Assembly: GCF_900167095.1 (NCBI RefSeq)
Contig: NZ_FUXG01000016.1
Span: forward strand, 1 to 62,849
Length of the DNA stretch: 62,849 bases
From: Oceanospirillum multiglobuliferum
GTDB lineage: Bacteria > Pseudomonadota > Gammaproteobacteria > Pseudomonadales > Halomonadaceae
Direction of reading: 5' to 3'
Shown here: one piece after another, positions 18,546-60,654 of the stretch
How the letters are laid out: the number at the start of each line of letters is the position of its first letter
How positions within the stretch are numbered: position 1 is the stretch's first letter
The notes under the pieces: model-generated
Database searches by the model: none
What the model saw: the letters and a program-made list of their open reading frames with translations, nothing else
What the model was told of the DNA's origin: nothing
Made by a program: the position numbers and the translations under genes

Positions 18546-18722
18546 ATGTATATGTACCGCCTAATTCTCTTTTTAGTCTTTGCGGGCTACCTGTATTCAC
18601 CGGTTTTGATGGATTGGTGGGGAGACAGCAACGGCAGTTGGTATCGCCCCTATCTGATTTGGGCTTCGCTGATCGGACTATCCATCTGGTTGGAGCAGAA
18701 GAGGAAGTTAGATGAACTTTAG
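18546..18722 (+). CDS. cbrX: Small membrane protein, CbrX-like
   Basis: A 58-residue ORF (MYMYRLILFLVFAG start, [11 protein letters not shown] end) with AAGG six bases before its ATG. Two hydrophobic stretches (about residues 4-20 and 36-50) suggest a small inner-membrane protein. Its last 11 bases overlap the cbrA start, so cbrA translation should be coupled to it. Position, size and overlap match the cbrX ORF described upstream of cbrA in Pseudomonas; the sequence itself was not compared. Function unknown beyond possible coupling. Confidence 0.75.
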   Translation: MYMYRLILFLVFAGYLYSPVLMDWWGDSNGSWYRPYLIWASLIGLSIWLEQKRKLDEL

Positions 18723-21678
18723 CTTCAGCCTTGGGCAAATCTTCGCCATTGGCGTTGGCTATCTACTGATTTTATTTGCCTGCGCTTACGCAACGGAGAG
18801 ACAGTGGCTACCACGCAAATTGACACGCCATCCTGTTGTCTACGTCCTCTCACTGGGGGTTTACGCCAGTGCTTGGGCAGTCTATGGCTCCGTAGGCTTG
18901 GCCAATCAATATGGCTATGGCTTCTTATCCTACTATTTAGGCGTGGCGGGCGCTTTTGTATTAGCCCCTGTGCTGTTGGTGCCCATTTTGCGCATCAGCC
19001 GCACCTATCAACTGTCATCCCTGGCAGATTTGTTTGCTTTTCGCTTTCGAAGCCGCTGGATCGGTAGTTTAGTCACCGTCTTCATGCTGATGGCGTCAAT
19101 GCCATTATTGGCCTTGCAGATTCAAGCGGTGGCGGACTCAATCTATATTTTAACCAACGAGGCCTCCCCTCATACCCTAGCGTTAGCCTTCTGCTTGGTG
19201 ATCACCACATTTGCGATTTTATTCGGTGCTCGCCACACCTCCTTAAGGGAAAAACATGAGAGCTTAGTGGCGGCAATCGCTTTTGAGTCCATTATCAAAC
19301 TGGCCATTATGTTGGCTATTGGCAGTTATGCATTATTTGAAGTTTTTGATGGCTTTCAAGGCTTAGAGGTTTGGCTGCAAAGCCACAGCGACCAACTACA
19401 AGCACTACAAAAGCCGCTTGAAGCGGGGCAGTGGCGCACCATGTTGCTACTGTTCTTTGCAGCAGCAGTGGCCATGCCCCATATGTTCCACATTATTTTC
19501 ACAGAGAACCAATCTACAGAAGTGCTATTTCGCGCCAGTTGGGCCGTACCGCTCTACCTACTGCTGCTGAGTTTACCCGTCCCCCTAATCCTTTGGGCCG
19601 GTATGGCTGAAGGCATTAACTTAAAACCTGAATATATGATCTTGGGGTTAGGAAAAGAGGAGACGCAAGGCCTCCTCGGCATTTTAGCTTTTATTGCGGG
19701 TCTCTCGGCGGCCAGCGGCACCATTATTTTGGTCACACTGGCGCTTGCGGCAATGACATTGAACCACTTGGTATTAGCGGTTTACCAGCCCGGTGCCAAG
19801 TTTGACATTTACAATTGGCTACTTTGGTTCCGCCGATTATTAATCGGCACTATTATTGTTGCAGCTTATCTGTTTTATCGCACATTGGGCGTACGCCACA
19901 ATCTGGCCAGCTTGGGTTTAACCTCTTTTGTTGGCATCCTTCAGTTTCTACCCGGCATCTTAGCGGTACTCTATTGGCCAACGGCCAATCGCATCGGCCT
20001 AATTGCAGGCCTGTGCAGTGGTATTGGCATCTGGATCTTTGGTCAAGTCATCCCGCTTTTATACAACCTTGAACAGGTCACATTACCTGCATCCAATTTG
20101 GTTTTTCATTCGGGAAGTGAGGGCTGGTATCAAGTTGCGCTGGTATCGATCACACTGAATATTACTGTTTTTATTGTCACATCCTTGTTTATCCAGCCCA
20201 GTGAAGAGGAAAAAGAGGGCGCCAGCAGTTGCTCTGTTGATGCACTGTCACGCCCACACCGTTTACAACTGAATGCACGAACCTGCCAAGACTTTGTCAC
20301 CTTTCTCAGCGTTCCGCTCGGTGAAAGCACTGCCAAACGAGAGGTTCAAACCGCATTGAACGGCCTCAAACTGGAGATGGAAGACAGCCGGCCTTACGCT
20401 ATGCGGCGTTTGCGTGATCGGATTCAAGCCAACTTATCAGGGTTGATGGGGCCTGCCATTGCACAAGAAATTGTTGATCAATACCTACCTTATCAACCCG
20501 CGAATGTTCAAGGACACACCGAAGATATTCACTTCGTTGAAAGTCGCTTGGAAAGCTACCGCTCGCAGCTGACAGGGTTAGCAAAAGAGCTGGACAGCCT
20601 ACGTCGCTATCACCGCCAAACGCTACAGTATTTGCCAATTGGTGTTTGCTCCTTAGGTACAGACCGCGAAGTCTTAATGTGGAACAACGCAATGGCTGAG
20701 CTGACCAGTATCTCAGGTGAGCAGGTGATCGGCTCACGCTTTGATGCCCTGCCGGAGCCTTGGAAAAACTTACTAGATGACTTTATCCAGCAGAATCACA
20801 ACCACCATATGTTCCAGAAAGTCAGCCAGAAAAATGGACAACCCCGCTGGTTTTCTCTGCACAAAGCTCGAATAGAAGAGCCACTGTCTCATATGGGAGG
20901 CATGGTGATTTTGTTAGAAGACCATACTGAAACTCAACGCTTAGAGGAAGAGCTGGTACACAGCGAACGATTGGCCAGTATTGGGCGCTTGGCTGCTGGG
21001 GTCGCTCATGAAATTGGCAACCCTATTACCGGCATCTCTTCACTTGCGCAGAATATGAAGTATGAAACCGATAACCCCGAGGTGATTCAAACCTCTGAGC
21101 AAATTCTACAACTCACTAAGCGCGTCACACGCATTGTGCATTCGCTGGTCAGCTTTGCCCATGCAGGTCGTCATACTGGACAAAACCAGCAAGAACCGAT
21201 GCAGCTGAATCAGGCCATCACAGAGGCGATCAATCTCATCTCCTTAGCAGATAAGGGTAAAGAGCTTGAGTTTATCAACCTTTGTTCCGATGACATCATC
21301 GTTATTGCCGACATACAAAAGCTGGTACAGGTCTTTGTTAACCTTTTAGGTAATGCAAGAGATGCCTCAGAAGTGGGAGATAGTGTTACTATTAGCGCAC
21401 AGGTTTCGGAACATACCGTAACAGTCTCGGTAACTGATCAAGGCTGCGGTATTCCAGAAGACCAACTTGAACATATTTTTGAACCCTTCTTCACCACAAA
21501 AGAACCGGGTGAAGGAACCGGACTTGGGCTGGCATTGGTGTACAGCATAGTGGAAGAACACTATGGCCAGATCCATATCATTAGCCCTGCGGACCGGATG
21601 CAAGGTAGAGGAACTCAGGTCGATATCACCCTGCCTCTTCACCATGCTGAAGCCAAAAGCGAATCTGCGTGGACTTAA
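18712..21678 (+). CDS. cbrA: Transporter-histidine kinase CbrA
   Basis: This 988-residue hybrid has an N-terminal sodium/solute-symporter (SLC5-like) region of about 13 membrane helices (to about residue 500). A linker, a PAS domain (about 640-740) and a histidine kinase core follow. The phospho-acceptor is H766 ([10 protein letters not shown]), and the ATPase boxes [17 protein letters not shown] and GEGTGLGL are intact. In Pseudomonas, CbrA controls carbon/nitrogen balance through CbrB and the RNA CrcZ, and in some species also transports histidine. The adjacent cbrB and RNA locus support the same role here. Confidence 0.93.
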
Positions 21679-21680
21679 AC

Positions 21681-23117
21681 ATGCCCCAAATATTGGTAGT
21701 AGAAGACGAAGACATTATCCGCTCCGCTCTGAAAAGATTGCTGGAACGGCATCAGTTTGAAGTTCAAGAGGCCGCCTCCGTTGATGAGGCTTTGTCACGC
21801 TTCAAGCTGAAAGATTTTGATCTGATTATTTCTGACCTGCGTTTACCTAAAACACCAGGCACAGACCTAATCAAATTGGCAGAAGGTATTCCCGTACTGA
21901 TCATGACCAGCTACGCCAGTCTACGCTCAGCGGTGGACTCCATGAAAATGGGGGCGGTGGACTATATCGCCAAACCATTTGATCACGAAGAGATGCTCAA
22001 CGCAGTCAATCGCATCCTTGCCAACCATGCCAATCAGCGTTTACAAGAAGCGGATGCCGCCAGCATCGTGGAAGAGGAAAACAGTGAACCCGGCACAATG
22101 GGCATGATTGGACATTGCCCCACCATGCAGGTGGTTTATCAGCGCATCCGAAAAGTTGCACCAACCGACGCGACCGTCCTAATCCAAGGCGAATCAGGTA
22201 CAGGTAAAGAACTGATTGCCAAGGCGATCCATAACAACAGTCGTCGCCGAAATGCACCACTGATCTCCGTTAACTGTGCCGCAATTCCTGAAACCCTTAT
22301 TGAATCCGAACTTTTCGGTTATGAGAAAGGGGCTTTCACTGGTGCAAACACCAATCGTTGCGGCTTAGTCGAAGCGGCAGATGGCGGCACGCTTTTCTTA
22401 GATGAAATTGGCGAACTGCCACTAGAAGCACAAGCACGCTTACTGCGGGTACTCCAAGAAGGTGAAATTCGTCGCATTGGCTCAGTGCACTCTAAGAAGG
22501 TTGATGTACGCCTAGTCGCTGCAACACACCGCAATTTAAAGAAACTTTCCAGCGAAGGTGATTTCCGCCTTGATCTCTACTACCGTCTAAATGTAATGGA
22601 ACTCACCCTGCCGCCACTAAAGCAGCGTGGAGATGATATTTTAGAGATCGCAGAGTTTTTACTCAGCAATGCCTGCAAAAGAATGGAGCGCCCCAACCTT
22701 CGTCTATCCAAGCACGCTGCGGATGCGATTTCACAATATGACTGGCCTGGAAACGTGCGTGAGCTGGAGAATGCCATTGAGCGAGGTGTGATACTAGCTG
22801 AAGGTAATCTGATTCATACTGATGACTTGGGCATTGAGCCAGTATCCACTGTTGCTCATCGTCCTTCAATCCCACAAGTACAGTCTGCATTGCCTTCTAT
22901 TGGTGCGCCCTCACGTGTGATTCCGCGTAATGATGGCACTAAAGCACCTGAAGATCTTTCTCTTGAAGACTATTTTCAACACTTTGTCTTAGAGCACCAA
23001 GATCAGATGAGCGAAACCGAATTGGCACAAAAACTGGGCATTAGTCGAAAATGTTTATGGGAGCGGCGCCAGCGCTTAGGAATTCCACGAAGAAAAAGCC
23101 CAACTCGCAAAGCCTAA
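21681..23117 (+). CDS. cbrB: Sigma-54-dependent response regulator CbrB
   Basis: This 478-residue NtrC-family activator has a receiver domain with phospho-acceptor D52 (ISDLRLP). The AAA+ domain carries the Walker A GESGTGKE and the sigma-54 contact loop GAFTGA at 217-222. A Fis-type helix-turn-helix lies at the C-terminus (ELAQKLGISRKCLWERRQRL). I start it at ATG 21681, two bases after the cbrA stop; an in-frame GTG at 21669 would overlap cbrA. It should activate -24/-12 promoters such as the one found at 23435. Confidence 0.94.
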   Translation: MPQILVVEDEDIIRSALKRLLERHQFEVQEAASVDEALSRFKLKDFDLIISDLRLPKTPGTDLIKLAEGIPVLIMTSYASLRSAVDSMKMGAVDYIAKPFDHEEMLNAVNRILANHANQRLQEADAASIVEEENSEPGTMGMIGHCPTMQVVYQRIRKVAPTDATVLIQGESGTGKELIAKAIHNNSRRRNAPLISVNCAAIPETLIESELFGYEKGAFTGANTNRCGLVEAADGGTLFLDEIGELPLEAQARLLRVLQEGEIRRIGSVHSKKVDVRLVAATHRNLKKLSSEGDFRLDLYYRLNVMELTLPPLKQRGDDILEIAEFLLSNACKRMERPNLRLSKHAADAISQYDWPGNVRELENAIERGVILAEGNLIHTDDLGIEPVSTVAHRPSIPQVQSALPSIGAPSRVIPRNDGTKAPEDLSLEDYFQHFVLEHQDQMSETELAQKLGISRKCLWERRQRLGIPRRKSPTRKA

Positions 23118-23309: not shown

Positions 23310-23360
23310 TGTTACCGTAACACACAGCACCAGTAAAATAAGATTGTTTCACTGGTAACA
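23310..23360 (+). promoter_or_regulatory. Candidate CbrB enhancer sites
   Basis: Two dyads of TGTTAC/GTAACA half-sites: TGTTAC-C-GTAACA (23310-23322) and TGTTTC-N4-GTAACA (23345-23360, within GATTGTTTC...GTAACAATC). CbrB of Pseudomonas is known to use TGTTAC/GTAACA-type upstream sites at crcZ. The dyad centres lie about 145 and 108 bases before the predicted start, a normal enhancer distance for a sigma-54 activator. Confidence 0.65.
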
Positions 23361-23434: not shown

Positions 23435-23450
23435 TGGCACAGCATCTGCA
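23435..23450 (+). promoter_or_regulatory. Sigma-54 promoter of the CrcZ-like RNA
   Basis: TGGCACAGCATCTGCA carries the invariant GG (23436-23437) and GC (23448-23449) exactly 10 bases apart, the -24/-12 spacing for RpoN. It matches TGGCAC well and the -12 half (CTGCA) acceptably. Transcription should begin near 23461. Confidence 0.8.
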
Positions 23451-23460
23451 ACTACCTAGT

Positions 23461-23965
23461 CAAGAACAACAAGAACGGCGGTTAACGTTCTAGCCGAAAC
23501 AAAAACAATAAGCGGCAATAAAAATTAAGCTCAAAAAATAAAAACAATAAGCGAGCGAAAAAACAGGTCGGCACTGGGAAAACAACAATAAACACCCAAC
23601 AAGATGACCAACCCTGAAATAAAAACAATAAGTCAGGATGAAAAGTTAACCGTAGCGAACTGATGCACAAAAGATTATTTGTAACAAAAATAATAAAACA
23701 GATAGCGATGTGCCTGCCCTGCAATAAAAACAATAAGCGGGCTGAGAAAGAATCATTGGATAATTGTTTTGAATACGAGGCGGTCCAAACTAGAAATCTC
23801 TGTATAGAGTTTTGAATTGGAAAATAAAAATAACTAGGCCAAGCCACCAAAGTTTGTAATTGACTGTCATTGCGCATTCAGAGCGATTTACCGAAGTCTG
23901 ACATATCGTTTGCATGGATGCAGACAATTTTATAGCGGAGCCAATTTGGCTCCGCTTTTGTTTTT
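23461..23965 (+). ncRNA. crcZ: CrcZ-like catabolite-repression RNA
   Basis: A non-coding stretch of about 505 bases between cbrB and pcnB, the location of crcZ in Pseudomonas. It begins with AAGAACAACAAGAA and contains about nine runs fitting AANAANAA, the A-rich motif through which CrcZ titrates Hfq/Crc. Four copies are identical 12-mers, AAAAACAATAAG, at 23501, 23540, 23621 and 23726. A sigma-54 promoter precedes it, CbrB-type dyads lie further upstream, and a strong terminator ends it. The longest frame (minus, 23482-23877) reads repeated LLFLF from the motifs and is not a gene. Length exceeds the roughly 400 nt known in P. aeruginosa. Ends are predicted, not mapped. Confidence 0.82.
23934..23965 (+). 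terminator. Terminator of the CrcZ-like RNA
   Basis: A 9-bp perfect stem AGCGGAGCC/GGCTCCGCT (23934-23942 with 23948-23956), an AATTT loop, then TTTTGTTTTT. It lies upstream of the pcnB ATG at 24009, which argues against the longer pcnB frame that starts at 23910. Confidence 0.9.
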
Positions 23966-31793: not shown

Positions 31794-32063
31794 TTAGCGG
31801 CGTAGGCCTAGACGCTTGATCAAATCACTGTAACGAGTAACGTCTTTACCTTTCAGGTAGTCCAGCAGTTTACGACGCTGGTTTACCATGCGGATCAGAC
31901 CACGACGTGAGTGGTGATCGTGCTTGTGAGATTTGAAGTGATCTTGCAGACCATTGATGTTCAAAGTTAACAGAGCAACTTGAACTTCTGGAGAACCAGT
32001 ATCGCCTTCGCCACGCTGATAGTCTTTAACGATTGCTGCTTTTTCTGCTGCAGATAGAGCCAT
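31794..32063 (-). CDS. rpsO: 30S ribosomal protein S15
   Basis: This 89-residue protein binds 16S rRNA early in 30S assembly. The core [15 protein letters not shown] and LLDYLKGKD segments are typical and the length is exact. It sits in the conserved truB-rpsO-pnp order. Confidence 0.98.
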
Positions 32064-32129
32064 GATATATCTCCTAGTGAATATGCAAATAAATAAGATT
32101 CAGGTTAACCGTGCATATTTACAGCTAAC

Positions 32130-33053
32130 CTAATCGGTTACCGTCTCATCGGTAACAATCAGGCGACGCGGCATTAAACGCCCCGTCTCTGATGCTTCAG
32201 CCAAACCTAAAAACTGCTGTTCTGGGTCGTACAAACGTACCATTCCAGTTAGATTTTCTGTATTGGCGATATCTTGGCCGTGCAGGATACGCGCAGTTTC
32301 TGCTGCAGACAAATTTTTCTTGGCAAAATGACTGACTAAAATATCTGCTGGCAATAAATAGTGATCAATAGACCCCTCATCATCGCGTACTTGTTGAAGC
32401 TGATCCATTGAGATCATTTCAGCAGCCTCAAAACCACCAGTATGCGTACGATGTAGGCTAATCAGATGTGCACCACATCCAAGCTGCTCGCCAATGTCTT
32501 CTGCTAACGTCCTCACGTAAGTGCCTTTTGAGCAACGTACCGAGAAAGTTAAGTCAGGCGCTTGCCAATTGATAAGCTCAATAGAGTAAATCGTTACAGG
32601 GCGTGCTTTACGCTCAACCGTTTTGCCTTCTCGGGCAAGTTTGTACAGCGGCTGACCATTCTGCTTAAGTGCCGAGTACATCGGTGGCACTTGTTCAATA
32701 GCGCCGACAAAACCTTGCATCACTTGCTGTAGCTGCTCAATGCTCAGCTCCGGTACGGAACGCTCATGGATAATTTCACCATCTGCGTCGCCAGTATCAG
32801 ACACTTGGCCTAAACGCGCACAGGCGATATAAGCTTTATCGGCATCAAGTAAATAGCTGGAAAACTTAGTGGCTTCACCAAAGCACAATGGCAACAAGCC
32901 TGTTGCCATTGGATCAAGATTACCGGTGTGTCCGCCTTTGCTGGCAAACAGCATCGCACGAACCTTCTGTAGCGCCTTGTTACTAGAAATACCCGTAGGT
33001 TTATTCAGTAACAAGACCCCAGAAATCGCGCGACCTTTGCGACGTCGAGCCAC
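32130..33053 (-). CDS. truB: tRNA pseudouridine-55 synthase
   Basis: This 307-residue enzyme modifies U55 in the T loop of tRNAs. The catalytic aspartate is D47 in GHTGNLDPMATG, and a C-terminal PUA-like domain is present. Its start overlaps the rbfA stop, indicating coupling within the nusA-infB operon. Confidence 0.97.
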   Translation of the reverse strand: MARRRKGRAISGVLLLNKPTGISSNKALQKVRAMLFASKGGHTGNLDPMATGLLPLCFGEATKFSSYLLDADKAYIACARLGQVSDTGDADGEIIHERSVPELSIEQLQQVMQGFVGAIEQVPPMYSALKQNGQPLYKLAREGKTVERKARPVTIYSIELINWQAPDLTFSVRCSKGTYVRTLAEDIGEQLGCGAHLISLHRTHTGGFEAAEMISMDQLQQVRDDEGSIDHYLLPADILVSHFAKKNLSAAETARILHGQDIANTENLTGMVRLYDPEQQFLGLAEASETGRLMPRRLIVTDETVTD

Positions 33054-60294: not shown

Positions 60295-60654
60295 GGGGGC
60301 GACATGGCTTCGACGCCGGTTACAAACCCTGAGGTGCATGTCGAGAGGGTAGCGTTATCTCGTAAATCAAAGCGTTACAAACAAATAGTCGCAAACGACG
60401 AAAACTACGCTCTAGCTGCTTAATTGTAGCTCCCTTCGACGGAAGTTGCCTGTAACTTCTTGACAAGGTATGAGCCCGCGAAACAGGCTCGCAGCAAAGT
60501 CCGCCTTAGACCGCGCTGCTAAATTCTTCAAGGCTCGTGTTCGACAATCCTGTTCATTGGAGTGTTGGGCATTAAACTAAAAAATGAAACTAAACATGTA
60601 GAGCTGATGGCAGCGGACTGGCGGACGCGGGTTCGATCCCCGCCGCCTCCACCA
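60295..60654 (+). ncRNA. ssrA: Transfer-messenger RNA
   Basis: A 360-base tmRNA. The acceptor ends GGGGGCG and CGCCTCC pair with the conserved G-U at position 3, and CCA is encoded at 60652-60654. The GACATGGCTTCGACG 5' part and the TTCGATCCCCGC T-arm are typical. The tag frame at 60391-60423 reads ANDENYALAA-stop, the same peptide as in E. coli. Its 3' end appears to serve as integration site for the following element. Confidence 0.97.

Follow-up and report, generated by a model that had tools for sequence, protein, structure and literature searches.

A predicted non-coding RNA, encoded between cbrB and pcnB in Oceanospirillum multiglobuliferum, in all likelihood works like the CrcZ RNA of Pseudomonas, driven by CbrB and RpoN and sequestering Hfq, or Hfq together with Crc; judged from the DNA sequence and its relatives, we put the probability of this reading at roughly 0.85. 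The RNA fails the test of the Rfam model for CrcZ, yet its place in the genome, its sigma-54 box, its CbrB subsites and its motifs for Hfq are those of a CrcZ. A first-pass annotation of the same DNA (a stretch of 62,849 nucleotides, the whole of which is here termed the window; contig NZ_FUXG01000016.1) had recognized the basic locus. What is added here is the spread of this arrangement over the order, the hairpin-loop form of the RNA, a conserved 3' core and the CbrB subsites upstream.

In the proposed mechanism, a low supply of the preferred carbon source would lead CbrB to activate the sigma-54 promoter, and a non-coding transcript some 500 nt long would result. Its AAN runs, mostly displayed in hairpin loops, would each fit about one distal face of an Hfq hexamer (up to six triplets), and the RNA would in this way draw Hfq, with Crc, off the start regions of catabolic mRNAs, relieving their repression. 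A long-range helix at the 3' end would serve as a stable end module, and a terminator would end the RNA. The outcome is probably a cell that is freed for second-choice foods.

The locus and the predicted RNA

The frames of the window and a reading of the neighbourhood give the gene order dksA, gluQRS, cbrA, cbrB, RNA and pcnB; next after pcnB come frames that we take to be folK-, panB- and panC-like. The cbrA-like gene (18712 to 21678; all features are on the plus strand unless stated otherwise) encodes a membrane N-terminus followed by PAS, HisKA and HATPase_c domains (Pfam), and its membrane part gave no match to SSF/SLC5 or any other transporter family of Pfam at E<=0.001. The cbrB gene (21669 to 23117) encodes a sigma-54 response regulator with receiver, sigma-54 interaction and lid domains, of which 13 orthologues with 59-68% identity, Halomonas included, are found among the best 80 loci listed. 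The RNA gene fills the interval between cbrB and pcnB, the place in which a functional RNA of the CrcZ kind is expected. Elsewhere in the window, Rfam matches mark an S15 leader (32007-32132, minus strand) near a polynucleotide phosphorylase-like gene and an ordinary tmRNA (60295-60654, plus strand).

The sigma-54 promoter that had been said to head the interval is borne out, as a predicted promoter, by the box TGGCACAGCATCTGCA at 23435 to 23450, which lies one mismatch from the sigma-54 consensus used. Boxes of this type are not rare on their own (53 matches with at most two mismatches in the window, as against 50.9 expected). The source genome holds one RpoN match and one Hfq match, so that the -24/-12 box and rpoN, a pair that a functional RNA of this kind would need, are present together. 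Placing the start from the box and the end from the terminator gives a predicted RNA of 502 nt (23461 to 23962), with a G+C content of 37% as compared with 47% in the window and a folding z-score of -5.0 against 100 shuffles. The strong terminator of the earlier description was likewise found, as a stem (23935-23943/23947-23955) with a T-run that together span 23935 to 23962; in the best fold of the RNA, part of the 5' A-rich run also pairs with this T-run.

The same interval had been described as about 505 bases without a coding frame. Its position between cbrB and pcnB stands, but a minus-strand frame of 131 codons is present (23482-23877). In five RNAs of the same genus the longest stop-to-stop frames measure 68-123 codons on the minus strand and 81-145 on the plus strand, as compared with 131 and 57 in the window; since these lengths differ among the window and its five relatives, neither strand conserves a frame of constant length.

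A-rich motifs

The short motif AANAANAA occurs 90 times on both strands of the window, against 67.2 expected (a count attained in 2 of 100 shuffles), and 24 of these matches are found on the plus strand within 23462-23833. They form nine clusters after the box, in agreement with the 'about nine' A-rich runs first reported. When counted as runs of at least four AAN triplets, the 502-nt RNA contains eight, whereas 2000 dinucleotide shuffles give a mean of 0.64 and a maximum of 4; these eight runs supply the multiple (ARN)n motifs expected for the distal face of Hfq, and are predicted Hfq sites. The run at the 5' end (23462 to 23476) is located outside any simple hairpin, and the last A-rich run (23823 to 23834) is located within an insert of the 3' core.

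Four identical 12-mers, AAAAACAATAAG, had been reported at 23501, 23540, 23621 and 23726, and all four are there. Some 12-mer is present at least four times in 25 of 2000 shuffles of the A-rich local composition, so that, given the A-richness of this region, their identity is only mildly unusual. The five same-genus relatives hold 0, 0, 0, 0 and 1 exact copies of AAAAACAATAAG while keeping the AAN pattern and the surrounding hairpins. The four identical 12-mers were therefore rejected as a conserved feature, and the suggestion that 'regularised motifs' are a property of the system does not hold within the genus. The whole assembly contains six copies of AAAAACAATAAG. The two outside the RNA (L185, L186) lie 94-97 nt upstream of starts and not on ribosome sites: one is 97 nt before a frame that we take to be proline racemase/hydroxyproline epimerase-like, and the other is at the end of a presumably TRAP binding-protein-like gene, 94 nt before what we take to be a small-permease-like frame.

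Predicted hairpin loops and their display of AAN runs

The predicted fold places a series of hairpins along the RNA. Hairpin 1 (23493 to 23516; stem GCCG/CGGC) carries AACAAAAACAATAAG in its loop, and hairpin 2 (23529 to 23556; GCTC/GAGC), which is also seen in the genus alignment, holds six AAN triplets in its own. They are followed by hairpin 3 (23575 to 23598; TGGG/CCCA), hairpin 4 (23613 to 23637; CCTGA/TCAGG), hairpin 5 (23673 to 23706), which is enclosed by an outer GCACA/TGTGC stem (23665-23669/23709-23713), and hairpin 6 (23716 to 23742; GCCC/GGGC); the last three are covarying.

The five same-genus RNAs (L203-L207) can be aligned with the window RNA over its whole length. Covariation was counted over five helices that enclose A-rich runs, comprising 28 pairs chosen from the consensus fold; hairpins 1 and 3, which are unpaired in that consensus, were left out. 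In these helices 92.9% of the cells are paired, as compared with 29-44% when the strands are slid against one another, and double changes are found in 11 of the 28 pairs, against 5.3 in shuffled alignments (none of 500 reaching 11, a count that is not a probability because the aligned rows are related) and 1-5 when slid.

The display of the motifs by hairpins was assessed by comparing the pairs enclosing each A-rich motif with those formed by shuffled flanks. Across 15 genera of the window's family, 104 of 116 motifs have at least four enclosing pairs, with a mean of 7.61 versus 4.88 (p 5e-12); the window by itself gives a weak signal (six of nine motifs with at least four pairs, and a mean of 4.56 versus 2.88 or 3.32 in two runs). 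The display is not significant in five Pseudomonas-type genomes (28 motifs, 15 with at least four pairs; 3.82 versus 3.26, p 0.26), in 21 further loci (2.40 versus 1.91 over 111 motifs, of which 39 have at least four pairs; p 0.22), or in an earlier run of 124 motifs outside the family (2.21 versus 2.02, p 0.57). As a general trait of CrcZ-type RNAs it was therefore discarded, the significant signal being confined to the window's family; single loci elsewhere, such as L165 (7.33 versus 2.98 shuffled), may display their motifs in modelled hairpins as well.

In Pseudomonas aeruginosa, one A-rich stretch is able to fill the six distal pockets of one Hfq hexamer, and a CrcZ fragment with three such stretches produced three shifted bands, which fits one hexamer each (both from the accessible part of PMC4063720). 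By that measure, loops of four to six AAN triplets would each present about one Hfq hexamer site. Cryo-EM of Hfq-Crc on mRNAs, as given in the available portion of PMC9890229, has hairpins contacting the proximal side of Hfq, and repression rose slightly after one of them was removed.

The 3' core and its covariance models

Downstream of the hairpins, the two strands of the long helices of a 3' core are found at 23756 to 23785 and at 23862 to 23894. In an alignment of 20 sequences, 99.1% of the cells in its 32 pairs are paired (31-50% when slid), and 7 of the 32 pairs contain double changes, against 1.7 in shuffles, of which none in 500 reaches 7; as for the hairpins, the rows are related and this count is not a probability. 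A covariance model of the core (R1), built from these 20 sequences (15 from genomes of the family, the window included, and five named Halomonas/Litchfieldella records), finds the RNA in 118 of the 121 genomes of the window's family, with one match in each; 15 of the 118 are model-source genomes that match by construction, and the other 103 are not. The named records suggest that this family is Halomonadaceae or close to it, the five Halomonas/Litchfieldella loci being presumably members of the same family as the window.

A covariance-model search for CrcZ, proposed as a check by the first-pass annotation and here run with Rfam RF01675, did not recognize the RNA: the window reaches at best 11.2 bits against a gathering threshold of 95 bits, and the source genome, under stricter filters, gave no match at E<=0.001. 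Membership in the Rfam CrcZ family was accordingly rejected. The same model matches 75 of the 390 genomes of the order at E<=0.001 and reaches its gathering threshold in 20. Conversely, R1 gave no significant match among 32 loci that carry RNAs of Pseudomonas type or related ones, its one match there reaching 10.9 bits (E 1.2), and a single covariance model for all CrcZ-type RNAs was also rejected, R1 being confined to the window's family.

The long helix itself can be followed further. In 46 loci from six family groups it aligns in one register, with 843 of 1104 cells (76%) paired as compared with 35-49% when slid by 1-4; with five motif-chosen anchor columns removed, 70% are paired versus 28-49% when slid. 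This set comprises 23 distinct strand pairs in related rows; of 53 rows picked, L103 and L106 were excluded because the pick fell outside the core, and five others because they repeated genomes already included. Column -6 is unpaired in all 46 loci; at columns -8 and -9 the window's family has G-C, and the other loci mostly have A-T. No such core was found in 51 of 104 loci searched, including four of Pseudomonas type (L084, L099, L100, L134). Where it is present, the shared register is suggestive, without being proof, of common descent.

Distribution over the order

Of the 390 genomes of the order, 267 have a CbrB-like protein at E<=1e-140. Among 76 distinct loci, which were selected among the top matches to CbrB with a view to family coverage and not at random, 72 (from 23 family codes, the named records not counted) have a sigma-54 box and an A-rich array after cbrB; the count is 73 of 77 if L009 and L161, which represent one place, are both included. 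The array was defined by an A-rich run 20-60 bases after the start of the box together with a minimum of two runs within 450 bases. Six of these loci had been found by way of the CrcZ model, which is circular, and the count without them is 66 of 70. On the opposite strand none of the 77 loci (0 of 77) fits the same definition, and among 1540 shuffles 1 does. Ten of the 13 orthologues from the best 80 loci listed entered the count; the sequences of two others, L015 and L007, stop too early, and L013, outside the count, showed no array in 950 bases. The four negatives are two f7 genomes in which the RNA lies elsewhere than at cbrB (L180 = G006, L181 = G180), an f28 genome with none (G146), and an f6 locus (L175) where A-rich runs follow a sequence that is possibly a poorer box. 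A sigma-54-type box was also found in 15 of 16 loci of a second set, and the Halomonas records keep their A-rich motifs in G+C-rich surroundings.

Eight loci (L014, L122, L143, L156, L157, L163, L165 and L176) have two sigma-54-type boxes in tandem after cbrB, each followed by A-rich runs, and possibly represent duplicated CrcZ-like RNAs. Four loci (L010, L011, L012, L014) share the sequence GACCTGGRTGGGGAAG, which comes after the A-rich runs and leads into a terminator-like hairpin; these RNAs are short (Spongiibacter, Pseudohaliea, Dasania and a gammaproteobacterium), and GACCTGGRTGGGGAAG is perhaps a second protein or pairing site.

Probable control by CbrB, and genomes that lack it

CbrB subsites have been described as TGTTAC in the forward and GTAACA in the reverse direction, with neighbouring centres 20-25 bp apart (PMC6296734, accessible text). 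Upstream of the box in the window, a predicted forward subsite, TGTTAC (23310 to 23315), and a predicted reverse subsite, GTAACA (23355 to 23360), match this description and are 45 bp apart; half way between them is GTAAAA (23333 to 23338), one mismatch from GTAACA and at distances of 23 and 22 bp from its two neighbours, which may be a middle subsite. An exact GTAACA also adjoins the forward subsite at 23317-23322. Subsites upstream of the box are what a functional CrcZ locus would have.

Within the window's family, at least two subsite hexamers are found within 220 bases upstream of the box in all 27 CbrB-positive loci (five of which are the named records), and in none of eight loci from CbrB-less genomes, four of which come from one genus and one of which has a single hexamer. 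When GTTACC/GGTAAC had been counted earlier, the result was 25 of 27 versus one of eight (Fisher p 4e-5, kinship being ignored); GGTAAC lies at -80 to -82 in 26 of the 27 CbrB-positive loci, 23 of the 27 have GTTACC at -123 or -124, and at least two of these hexamers are present in 0.2% of shuffled upstream DNA. The coupled loss of subsites and CbrB supports CbrB as the activator where it is present, and the claim that CbrB controls the RNA gains from the tracking of predicted subsites with the protein.

CbrB at E<=1e-120 was found in 89 of the 121 family genomes: 88 have both the RNA and CbrB, 30 the RNA only, one CbrB only (G404) and two neither. With 30 of 121 genomes holding the RNA without CbrB, the protein is not indispensable, and the RNA can persist after its loss. 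Frames were listed for two of the CbrB-less loci (L191 = G171 and L208 = G126), and in both gluQRS is followed directly by the RNA, with no cbrAB; each of the five CbrB-less genera read retains a sigma-54-type box. The single genome with CbrB only (L216) has no core match and a gene other than pcnB after cbrB.

Hfq and Crc

The source genome has two members of the Exo_endo_phos family, one closest to exonuclease III (1ako, 9.7e-114) and the other closest to the solved Crc of P. aeruginosa (2.8e-82); the gene for the latter lies between what are presumably rph-like and pyrE-like frames. Hfq and Crc, the partners that a functional RNA of the CrcZ kind would have, are thus both encoded. Crc-like proteins at E<=1e-45 are found in 296 of the 390 genomes of the order, of which some may be exonucleases.

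Family f28 is different in this respect. Twelve of its CbrB-positive genomes were examined again and include one with a clear Crc (G027) and seven with no match at 1e-6, all seven of which have Hfq; the matches of 1e-7 to 1e-12 in the other four are taken for exonucleases. Two of the seven were read (L140 and L147), and both have the RNA with 7-8 A-rich clusters, from which it follows that the sponge can be kept without a Crc match; G146, with a weak Crc match only, has no array after cbrB. The reverse situation, Crc without CbrB, is seen in family f26, where 18 genomes have a Crc-like protein and none is among the CbrB matches.

A wider proposal can be framed from these distributions, for which we see the arguments as evenly balanced: a sigma-54-driven, A-rich Hfq sponge would be an old hub of the whole order in which fold, activator and partner are each replaceable, which has survived the loss of CbrAB in five genera or more and that of Crc in another family, and which in the window's family has become a chain of hairpins whose loops each carry roughly as many AAN triplets as one Hfq hexamer takes up.

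Alternative explanations

The competitor that deserves most attention, unlikely as we consider it for the window, is an Hfq sponge of the same build that answers to a signal other than the carbon hierarchy read through CbrAB and Crc, that is, a general Hfq buffer whose activator and partner are exchangeable. The 30 family genomes with the RNA and no CbrB, the box retained in the CbrB-less genera, and the f28 genomes that combine the RNA and Hfq with no Crc match are what such a buffer would lead one to expect; against it, the source genome has CbrB, CbrB subsites and Crc, and in f28 the array is missing after cbrB in G146, where the Crc match is weak. That the sequence is a long 5' untranslated leader of pcnB, and not a free RNA, is improbable: it does stand directly before pcnB on the same strand, but a terminator stem and T-run intervene, aligned in relatives, and in the two f7 genomes the RNA is found apart from cbrB.

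Two further readings have next to no claim on belief. The 131 open codons of the minus strand could be those of a small protein or an antisense transcript, but the frame lengths on that strand range from 68 to 123 codons in the five relatives and the base changes follow the pairing of the RNA. The low local G+C could likewise mean chance A-rich intergenic DNA, a view contradicted by the shuffles, the covariation and the conservation, and by the Halomonas records, whose motifs stand in G+C-rich surroundings. The preferred reading remains an RNA that would work like CrcZ under CbrB and RpoN. The CbrB-less and Crc-less lineages amount to natural deletions that make it testable what else activates the RNA and whether Hfq alone is its essential target; and if the Halomonas strains of biotechnology follow the same rule, the RNA might offer a handle on their carbon preference.

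Comparison with known systems

Like the CrcZ of Pseudomonas (RF01675, with its companions CrcY and CrcX), the window RNA is encoded downstream of cbrB, with a sigma-54 box, CbrB subsites and several A-rich predicted Hfq sites, and, among the loci in which such a core was found, its long helix can be aligned in one register with theirs and leaves a common column unpaired, a suggestive likeness. Unlike CrcZ, it is missed by the Rfam model, has another core sequence, and carries its A-rich runs mostly in hairpin loops; it is also present as one copy per genome in 118 family genomes, whereas nine Pseudomonas-type (f20) genomes show two. The sponge RNAs of the CsrB/RsmZ type have many hairpins, each of which shows a GGA site for CsrA/RsmA. 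The window RNA has AAN runs in its loops instead of GGA sites, and the resemblance is one of design only.

The RNA, at about 500 nt between its predicted ends, is longer than the 426 nt of P. aeruginosa CrcZ (PMC6422490, available text), as had been proposed. The sponge mechanism in P. aeruginosa rests on experiment (PMC4063720 and PMC6422490, as far as their accessible text goes), and CrcZ and CrcY of Azotobacter vinelandii, which is also within the Pseudomonadaceae, are described as Hfq/Crc antagonists under CbrAB in the accessible parts of PMC6292655 and PMC8871633. A review of 2022 states, in its available text, that cbrA-cbrB-crcZ has been described only in Pseudomonas and Azotobacter and is 'unique to the Pseudomonadaceae' (PMC8871633). 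The titles, abstracts and passages of open literature that were searched gave no description of CrcZ/CbrAB beyond that family, of the spread over the order or of the hairpin form. The first-pass proposal of a CrcZ-type RNA outside Pseudomonas is supported by place, box, predicted CbrB subsites and AAN motifs. The box and array that follow cbrB in 72 of the 76 distinct loci, which represent many families, argue against an arrangement unique to the Pseudomonadaceae.
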